From Flavobacteriales bacterium (GTDB taxonomy: Bacteria > Bacteroidota > Bacteroidia > Flavobacteriales > BACL11), in the NCBI GenBank assembly GCA_002711125.1, contig PAHN01000004.1, forward strand, positions 258,017-301,952: a stretch of DNA of 43,936 nt. The letters are read 5' to 3'. Position numbers and translations under genes: made by a program. This document shows positions 22,845 to 26,117 of this stretch, one piece after another. Position 1 is the first letter of the stretch; each line of letters starts with the position of its first letter. A model generated the notes under the pieces. The model was not told the DNA's origin. It made no database searches and was given only the letters and a program-made list of their open reading frames with translations.

Positions 22845-25367
22845 ATGAAAAAAATTAATTTGTTTTTTATATGTTGTTTTATATCTTCATTTGTACTTGG
22901 GCAAGGTATATTTGGTGAAATCAATGATAACAAAAAGAAAGTTAAAAAGGAAGAAATAGTAACAGTAGATGAGATAATTAAAAAGACTAAAGGATGTAAT
23001 GTTTATGATGGTTTATTTACAATATATCAGGATAAAGATAATGGTAAGTCATACATTGAGATAGATACATCACATATAGGTAACGAGTTTATTCATTTCA
23101 GTTATATAGAAAATGGAGTTATGGATGCTTGGGCTTTTCAAGGAAGCTACAGAGGATCTAAAATTATTGAAATAAATAAGTTTTATGATAAAATTGAGTT
23201 TACGGTTAAAAATACTAAATATTATTTTGATGAATCTAATCCATTGTCAAAGGGTGCAAATACAAATATAAATACTCCTATAGTTGTTTCAGAAAAAATT
23301 ATAGCTACTGGGCCAAATAAAACAAGATTTTTAATTAGTGCTGATAATATTTTTTTAACAGAATCTTTACAGCAAATTAAGGCGTCTTATCCACCAACCT
23401 ACAGAGGTTTTAGACTTGGTAATTTGAGTAAAAAAACTAGATATAATAAGATAAGAAGTTATCCTGAAAACACCGATGTTGTTGTAAATTACTTTTTTGA
23501 GACTAGATATCCATCAAATAGAGGAAGTGATGCTGTAACAGACGCTAGAAATGTTTCTATAATGGTTCAGCACAGTCTTATTAAAATGCCTGATGATAAC
23601 TATAATCCTAGAATCGATGATACTAGAGTGGGTTATTTTACTACTCGATCTAATGATATGACCAGCCTAGAAAGACTTAATTATAGAGATTTTATTAATA
23701 GATGGAGATTAGAAAAAAAGAATCCTGATCAAGCTCTATCTGATCCTGTTAAGCCAATTGTTTGGTGGATTGAAAATACAACACCTTATGAGTTTAGAGA
23801 TATTATAAAAGAAGGAGTAGAGATGTGGAATATTGCTTTTGAAAAGGCTGGATTTACTAATGCTGTTCAGGTTAAGATTCAACCAGATACTGCAGATTGG
23901 GACGCAGGAGATATTAGATATAATGTCTTGAGATGGAACTCTTCTCCTAATCCTCCTTTTAGTGGTTATGGACCATCATTTGTTAATCCAAGCACTGGCG
24001 AGATTTTAGGTTCTGATATTATGCTTGAGTGGGTTTATATTACAGGAAGGGTTTCAGAAAATTTACTTTATAATGAAAATGAATCAAATAATCACGATCA
24101 TCATATGTGTAGTGCAGCAAAGTATCAACAAATTGAAAATGCTCTAGGTTTTAATTATATTAAATCAATGGATTTATCTGAAGAGATGAAACGTGATTTT
24201 TTAAATCAAGCATTGAAAAGACTTGTTTTACATGAAGTAGGTCATACACTTGGTTTAAGTCATAATTTTAAAGGAAGTACCATGCTATCTACAGCTGAAC
24301 TCAATAATAAAGATATTGTTAATGCTCGGGGAGTATGTAATTCTGTTATGGAGTATCCTGCAACAAATATTGCTAAAGACCCTGATAATCAAGGTTTATT
24401 TTTTGACATACAACCTGGTCCATATGATGTATGGGTAATTGAATATGGTTATTCAGAATTTAATGATTCTATAAATGAAATAGAATCCCTTGAAAAGATT
24501 TTAAATAGATCTACTGAAAAAGATTTAGCTTTTGCTAATGATGCGTTTGATATGAGGTCTCCTGGTAAGGGAACAGATCCTAATGCAATGATTTACGATT
24601 TATCAAGTGATCAGCTTACATTTTCAGAGAACAGAATAGAAATGGTAACTAATATATTACAAAACTTAAAAGATAAATACACTAAAGACAATGATACCTA
24701 TGAAGAACTTTATAGAGCTTATAGAACTCTAGTATATTCTTATTTTCAATCATTAGAAGTTATTTCAAGACAAATAGGGGGGGTAAAAGTAGATTTATCA
24801 CATACAGATCAAAATTCATCATCAAAACCATTTGAAAGTGTTGACAAAGAAACACAAATGACAGCTATGCAAATGATATCAGATTACGGTTTTAGTAATA
24901 AGGTTCTACTTCAAGAGGATTTATTTCCTTATTTACAAAAGCAAAGAAGAGGATGGAATATTTCTGATGACCCAACAATTCATCAAAGAATTTTAATTTA
25001 TCAAAATAGGTTATTAAATCATCTTTTACACCCAAATGTGCTTCTTAGAATGACAAATTCAAGTTTATACGGAAATGAATATAAATTACCTGATTATATG
25101 ATAGATTTAAGAAAATCAATATTTCAAAGTGATATGTATGGAGATGTTAGTACTGTAAGACAAAACTTACAAATAACATATGTTAATAGATTACTATCAA
25201 TATTAGGTCCTAAATCAAGATATGATAATATTTCAAAGACTACTGCTCATTATAATCTTAATTGGTTAAAAAACAACATTAATATAAATACGGGAGATTT
25301 AGCATCAAGACAACATAAAGGATATATCTTACATATAATTAACGATGAGTTAAATAATGCTAAATAG
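22845..25367 (+). CDS. Large exported zinc metalloprotease (metzincin type)
   Basis: An 840-residue exported protease. The signal peptide covers residues 1-19 (ending VLGQ). The central catalytic domain has zinc-binding HEVGHTLGLSH with H463, E464, H467 and H473, and a Met-turn SVMEYP with M502 about 30 residues later, both hallmarks of metzincins. The N-terminal domain carries FIHFSYIENG and WAFQGSYRGS; the C-terminal 300 residues have RRGWNISDDP and resemble the DUF5117/DUF5118-type proteases of this phylum. No type IX sorting domain is seen at the C-terminus, so a periplasmic or outer-membrane location is likely. Its stop overlaps a truncated caspase-like gene by 11 bases. Confidence 0.9.
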   Translation: MKKINLFFICCFISSFVLGQGIFGEINDNKKKVKKEEIVTVDEIIKKTKGCNVYDGLFTIYQDKDNGKSYIEIDTSHIGNEFIHFSYIENGVMDAWAFQGSYRGSKIIEINKFYDKIEFTVKNTKYYFDESNPLSKGANTNINTPIVVSEKIIATGPNKTRFLISADNIFLTESLQQIKASYPPTYRGFRLGNLSKKTRYNKIRSYPENTDVVVNYFFETRYPSNRGSDAVTDARNVSIMVQHSLIKMPDDNYNPRIDDTRVGYFTTRSNDMTSLERLNYRDFINRWRLEKKNPDQALSDPVKPIVWWIENTTPYEFRDIIKEGVEMWNIAFEKAGFTNAVQVKIQPDTADWDAGDIRYNVLRWNSSPNPPFSGYGPSFVNPSTGEILGSDIMLEWVYITGRVSENLLYNENESNNHDHHMCSAAKYQQIENALGFNYIKSMDLSEEMKRDFLNQALKRLVLHEVGHTLGLSHNFKGSTMLSTAELNNKDIVNARGVCNSVMEYPATNIAKDPDNQGLFFDIQPGPYDVWVIEYGYSEFNDSINEIESLEKILNRSTEKDLAFANDAFDMRSPGKGTDPNAMIYDLSSDQLTFSENRIEMVTNILQNLKDKYTKDNDTYEELYRAYRTLVYSYFQSLEVISRQIGGVKVDLSHTDQNSSSKPFESVDKETQMTAMQMISDYGFSNKVLLQEDLFPYLQKQRRGWNISDDPTIHQRILIYQNRLLNHLLHPNVLLRMTNSSLYGNEYKLPDYMIDLRKSIFQSDMYGDVSTVRQNLQITYVNRLLSILGPKSRYDNISKTTAHYNLNWLKNNININTGDLASRQHKGYILHIINDELNNAK

Positions 25368-25482
25368 GTTTATATTTCTATTATTAATATTTCCTTTATT
25401 TATTTTTTGTGAAGAAAAAAGACTAGCTCTTGTAATTGGAAATGCAAATTATGATGAAGGGAAATTAAAAAAGATATTCTGA
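25357..25482 (+). pseudogene. Truncated 5' end of a caspase-like (peptidase C14) gene
   Basis: ATG at 25357 opens a 41-codon frame that reads a signal peptide (hydrophobic residues 5-17, then CEEKR) followed by RLALVIGNANYDEGKLKK and a TGA. The LALVIGNANY strand is the characteristic first beta-strand of bacterial caspase-family (C14) domains, where about 200 further residues with the His-Cys dyad should follow. Here the frame stops at once. The start overlaps the metzincin stop by 11 bases, as in an intact operon gene. I read this as a gene remnant left by a deletion whose other end is the EEP-family tail described next. Confidence 0.65.
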
Positions 25483-25534
25483 TCATTTACCCGTTTATTG
25501 TAAATTTCAATTATTTAATTGTGTAAGAGATTAG
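25469..25534 (+). pseudogene. 3' remnant of an endonuclease/exonuclease/phosphatase-family gene
   Basis: In the +1 frame relative to the caspase remnant, 21 codons read KRYSDHLPVYCKF and on to NCVRD before a TAG. SDHxPV close to the C-terminus is a signature of the EEP (DNase I-like) family, where the His is catalytic. The frame is closed by a TAA just upstream at 25466-25468, so no intact gene is present. Its abutment to the caspase start suggests one deletion removed the rest of both genes. Confidence 0.5.
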
Positions 25535-25609
25535 TGATAATTAATATTCTTATGCAATGAATAATAATTTATTTTAAATGTTTTTTATTTGTAATAAAAA
25601 TTACTTTTT

Positions 25610-26038
25610 ATGAAAAAAATTATTTTAATATTTATTCTTATACCCATAATAGGTTTTTCTCAAAATTCTAATAAATATAAAGAATTTAACGCAGGTGTTT
25701 ATGTAAATAATCTTGAGTTAGAGGGATGGTCTGGAATTGATTTTGATTTTATTTTTCCTGGGGCATCTTTTTTATGGGGAAAGACAAACTATTATAGTAA
25801 TAATTTATTCTTTGATTATCAAATAGGGGTGGCATTTCCATCTTTGATTACTGGTAAGGCCGGACTTGGAATTGGAAGTCAAGATAGTCCAGTTACTTTT
25901 AGTACAGGAATTCGACCATGGCCGTTAACATATTATGTTCAATTAGATTTTAATAATAGGTTTATAATTTCTATTGAACCATTTATAAGCTCGGGCATTG
26001 ATGGTACTGGAATAGCTACAATAGGTTTTAGATTTTAA
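25610..26038 (+). CDS. Small exported beta-barrel-like protein of unknown function
   Basis: A 142-residue protein with a signal peptide (residues 1-17, ending GFSQ). The mature part alternates hydrophobic and polar residues in short strands rich in Gly and aromatics, such as AGVYVNNLELEGW and YVQLDFNNRFIISIEP, and ends IATIGFRF with a terminal Phe. That is typical of small outer-membrane barrels in this phylum. No family was recognised. It stands alone downstream of the caspase/EEP scar; a short inverted repeat GTAAT-aaaa-ATTAC lies at 25591-25604, just before the start. Confidence 0.65.
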   Translation: MKKIILIFILIPIIGFSQNSNKYKEFNAGVYVNNLELEGWSGIDFDFIFPGASFLWGKTNYYSNNLFFDYQIGVAFPSLITGKAGLGIGSQDSPVTFSTGIRPWPLTYYVQLDFNNRFIISIEPFISSGIDGTGIATIGFRF

Positions 26039-26117
26039 AAAGTTAATATTAATTTAATTAATAGGGTATATATTAAATTTAACTATTTAACATAATATTA
26101 ATTATAAGACAAAAGTA

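Follow-up and report, generated by a model that had tools for sequence, protein, structure and literature searches.

Positions 25357-25534 of the window analysed here (a stretch of 43,936 nucleotides from a Flavobacteriales contig) hold two gene ends in different reading frames. The original prediction described it as a deletion scar that joins the start of a caspase-like gene to the end of an EEP-nuclease gene, with everything between these ends of two separate genes removed. On the basis of sequence comparisons, we consider it probable that the 178 bases are what an internal deletion left of one gene for an exported two-domain caspase-EEP protein, with 38 codons from its start and 21 from its end.

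Two gene ends between a protease gene and a likely dif site

The features of the region are listed in Table 1. The open reading frame 25357-25482 encodes 41 amino acids (MLNRFIFLLLIFPLFIFCEEKRLALVIGNANYDEGKLKKIF), with a start codon that overlaps the stop of the protease gene and is located inside AATGCTAAATAG, the 3' end of that gene, and with a stop codon (25480-25482) just past the junction. In the three-frame translation, the second frame (25469-25534) reads KRYSDHLPVYCKFQLFNCVRD, followed by a stop codon. In protein alignments, caspase homology ends at GKLK and EEP homology begins at Y-SDHLP. A +1 offset separates the two frames and precludes synthesis of an enzyme; the feature is a pseudogene remnant, and the scar itself is ordinary gene decay. 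The first β-strand of the C14 domain (consensus LALVIGNxxY) follows the start as LALVIGNANY, and the catalytic His and Cys residues are deleted. At the other end, the C-terminal SDHLP motif stands in the right context for PF19580, and the full EEP domain and its other active-site motifs are absent from the window.

Table 1. Features of the window between the protease gene and the dif-type site.
Feature	Position	Strand	Remarks
DUF5117/DUF4953 met-zincin protease gene	22845..25367	+	Left neighbour of dif in many family genomes
N-terminal remnant, ~38 codons	25357..25470	+	Signal peptide and first β-strand of an exported C14 caspase domain
Deletion junction	25465..25477	+	A-rich; exact breakpoint ambiguous; +1 frame change
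C-terminal remnant, 21 codons and stop	25469..25534	+	PF19580-type EEP nuclease; closest to the C-terminus of the G081 caspase-EEP fusion
142-aa exported protein	25610..26038	+	Between protease and dif, together with the remnant; seen only in this genus
dif-type chromosome dimer resolution site, ATTTAACATAATATTAATTATAAGACAA	26085..26112	.	Two 11-bp arms, 6-bp centre, 28 bp

Neither fragment was detected alone by Pfam, as expected for lengths of 38 and 21 residues. Such short, sub-threshold fragments in an AT-rich region could in principle be chance strings in intergenic DNA or the product of a mis-assembly, but this is very improbable given the matches obtained. In a DNA search of 52 family genomes, the N-terminal remnant was 77% identical over 83 bp (E 1.7e-11) to the beginning of an intact frame for an exported caspase in G021, and at the protein level it was 65% identical over 37 aa to a caspase of G024. 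When 10 Mb of DNA simulated from the window by a Markov model was read in six frames, SDHLPV[YF] did not occur; a looser SDHLPVY-type motif was found in the whole 358.7-kb contig only at the C-terminal remnant. Moreover, each fragment corresponds to one end of a single real protein (see below). The G021 and G024 caspases thus support the predicted frame with a signal peptide and LALVIGNANY directly after the metzincin gene, and the reading of the 21 overlapping codons with SDHLPVY as an EEP end was likewise confirmed. Homologues with C14 and EEP similarity, which were sought for both fragments, were obtained in the form of exported caspases and of fused and stand-alone EEP proteins.

One fused gene or two neighbours

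The caspase loci gathered from the order included a single open reading frame of 604 residues (P0001; G081, C6:19594-21405) that matched caspase and EEP queries alike. Its genome belongs to the same order but to a different family, and the locus is close to a contig end. P0001 starts with a signal peptide (judged by eye), followed by a C14 domain (PF00656) at residues 27-252 (E 1.3e-29) and an Exo_endo_phos_3 domain (PF19580) at residues 281-596 (E 3.9e-84). The caspase motifs (His in YYAGHA from residue 95, Cys in LDACR from residue 156) and the EEP motifs (EVEN, GDFND and SDHLP) are present. Six of the 16 residues of its linker, SKSRIVSSRDRSGIKR, are basic (Lys/Arg-rich), and the protein ends in FSDHLPVYSEFQFFDCFD. 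No further fusion was found in 395 genomes of the class or in 12 genomes of the G081 family. Viral, phage and plasmid collections yielded none either, with no match covering 80% of P0001, and a literature search that included the text of PMC3501461 and PMC8195603 returned no account of a caspase-EEP fusion. The exported fusion is therefore rare, with one intact case found, and apparently undescribed.

The two remnants are arranged, in order and strand alike, as in the G081 fusion. When the window tail (SDHLPVYCKFQLFNC) was aligned to the fusion C-terminus (SDHLPVYSEFQFFDC), a BLOSUM62 score of 70 was obtained (window, YSDHLPVYCKFQLFNC; fusion, FSDHLPVYSEFQFFDC), as compared with 32-58 for the tails of 28 stand-alone EEP proteins (within the family and order these scored 49-58, L250 scored 47, and 18 further ones from the class scored 32-49). 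Because of this difference, the remnant was read as the two ends of one fusion gene. The ancestral gene would then have encoded, in this order, a signal peptide, a C14 domain, a short basic linker and a PF19580 EEP nuclease domain. A single internal deletion of ~1.6 kb (~544 codons), a size that assumes a lost gene as long as its G081 relative, would have left little of either domain and changed the frame, so that only a dead 41-residue peptide remains. That the lost gene was a fusion and that one event made the scar are both what we infer as the likeliest reading. Several points count against it: only one intact fusion is available, the tail comprises only 21 residues, and no intact copy was found at the site; in addition, the window N-terminus is closer to other exported caspases (scores of 104-118, mostly caspase-TPR type) than to the fusion (63).

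The last point would suit two neighbouring genes on the same strand, with an exported caspase(-TPR) gene upstream of a stand-alone EEP gene and one deletion that began at codon 38 of the former and spared only the final 21 codons of the latter. The window N-terminus is indeed most like the stand-alone exported caspases of the family, and stand-alone PF19580 proteins are common in the class, with 236 of 395 genomes matching the fusion query at E values up to 1e-12 (the matches listed cover its EEP half) and one such protein, ending in WYKGFSDHLPVYFIFKVE, encoded on C7 of the same genome. However, no stand-alone EEP compared matches the tail as well as the fusion does, and none of the intact caspase loci examined, apart from the G081 fusion, has a homologous EEP gene alongside, so that we regard this arrangement as rather unlikely. 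The original prediction accordingly stands in so far as a deletion scar joins a caspase start to an EEP-nuclease end, whereas its assumption of two separate genes with a deletion between them is probably wrong. None of the relatives examined carries a caspase gene with an EEP gene after it, and in G081 both domains lie in one frame and one polypeptide.

Intact exported caspases similar to that of G021 are encoded in G024, G061 (two) and G081. C14 genes occur in only five of the 52 family genomes, and the window's own genome has no C14 match besides the remnant. None of the intact caspase genes of G021, G024, G061 and G081 was seen to adjoin a met-zincin gene or dif. Two further observations were made on these protein families. 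In G042, a caspase lies within a 1323-aa open frame (L101, C9). An exodeoxyribonuclease III-like EEP gene of the sister species G001 (L137, C56:2427-3073) appears split into two frames and is intact in the window's own genome (G000); the split could be a sequencing error.

The gap beside the likely dif site and its history

The remnant is located ~0.55 kb from a 28-bp sequence that shares 20 of 28 positions with the reverse complement of E. coli dif (sequence from PMC3025954), the best match in the window. Of the 52 family genomes, 29 carry it, each in a single copy, and it has at least 120 exact matches in the genome contig collection, nearly all of them, among the matches listed, in Bacteroidota. 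The cumulative GC skew of the contig climbs to this site and then remains on a broad plateau to ~315 kb (284-315 kb of C1). Judged from these sequence features, 26085-26112 is likely the dif site of the chromosome. In the family, the recurrent gene order is TPR protein, (met-zincin), dif, with variable genes across dif.

In 15 family genomes, the protease stop and dif are separated by 21-86 bases with nothing between. The exceptions are three genomes, namely the two of this genus (717 and 558 bases) and G017 (610 bases). Given the short gap elsewhere in the family, we interpret the remnant and the 142-aa gene as a segment that this genus acquired next to dif, such that the lost gene and the small exported-protein gene would have come to lie together between the met-zincin gene and dif. 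The 142-aa protein has no Pfam or NCBIfam match. The region upstream of its gene (25561-25617) is 86% identical over 57 bp to G000:C4:163247-163303, which lies upstream of another exported-protein gene of the same genome; the likeness perhaps reflects a shared promoter. In the G017 gap (L047, C18), a different 181-aa exported protein with the motif CGDGCPEWEKC is encoded. The window's own genome encodes an exported protein with a similar motif, CGDECNEWERC (L366, G000:C4:162700-164700). As the G017 protein is unrelated, the gap beside dif has received genes at least twice. Among ~120 dif loci elsewhere, no caspase gene was found, and there were two homologous EEP matches, within chance by a rough estimate.

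Close relatives had been expected to show the intact locus, but no intact copy was found at this site among the 52 family genomes: the remainder of the family has the short gap or, in G017, the unrelated gene, and the only congener compared, G001 (protease 93% identical), has no clear remnant. There, nearly identical flanks join as GGTTTATAATTAGTGATA, and ~155-170 bases, the entire remnant among them, are absent, with ambiguous exact ends. G001 either lost the gene completely or never had it, and with two species only, the change cannot be polarised. The gene may have been acquired by the dif-side segment of the window lineage alone, once this had separated from G001, with decay following; the sister state would then be ancestral. 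This history is compatible with one gene and with two alike. The clean junction in G001 and the arrival of an unrelated gene in the G017 gap speak for it, but the two species give no polarity and the segment bears no sign of a Xer-dependent element; overall, we find it conceivable and lean slightly against it. Xer-dependent import of the segment was considered separately. A search of the inserts of the window, G001 and G017 for a second dif-like site gave nothing above shuffle level, and we therefore propose no Xer mechanism.

A candidate exported caspase-nuclease and related systems

Orthocaspases cleave after positively charged residues (PMC6426788). In the intact fusion, the caspase domain may thus cut its own Lys/Arg-rich linker, so that the nuclease would be freed or activated outside the cytoplasm. 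Self-cleavage of this kind is a reasonable candidate model, suggested by the linker and the hallmark motifs. It is a more tentative suggestion that some Flavobacteriales-type bacteria possess an exported single-chain caspase-nuclease with a self-processed linker, of which the window would hold a dead gene, acquired next to dif and subsequently lost.

In animals, caspase-activated nucleases are exemplified by CAD/ICAD, in which a caspase controls a DNase; the proteins are separate and intracellular, and the nuclease has an unrelated fold. In bacterial antiphage systems, such nucleases have been known since 2025. The use of the scar is that it adds a second line of evidence for a rare protein design, in which a bacterial caspase is joined to an EEP nuclease within a single exported chain. 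The single-chain version would also provide a simple protein for testing whether a nuclease is switched on by bacterial caspase cleavage and for what extracytoplasmic purpose.

Exported PF00656 metacaspases and orthocaspases often carry TPR repeats, and the window likewise passes from a signal peptide at once into (E)KRLALVIGNANYDKG. Intact members of this exported C14 type are present in G021, G024, G061 and G081, whereas the window keeps only ~38 codons; the G081 fusion has PF19580 where the G024 caspase, for example, has TPR repeats. With the exported PF19580 EEPs of Bacteroidota, the window shares the C-terminal [FY]SDHLPVY, and in the fusion all three EEP motifs of this group are intact. 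The PF19580 members compared stand alone and end sooner or differently after SDHLPVY, whereas the fusion and the window share FQ[FL]F[DN]C. By analogy, the Canu (CanABC) antiphage system may be regarded as the nearest described logic, as it pairs a caspase-family protease with a nuclease that it activates by cleavage (PMC12799240). Canu, however, is intracellular and combines, in separate genes, an Ig-like-bearing caspase with an MBL-fold pro-nuclease beside it, whereas P0001 is one exported chain whose nuclease half is a PF19580 EEP domain.
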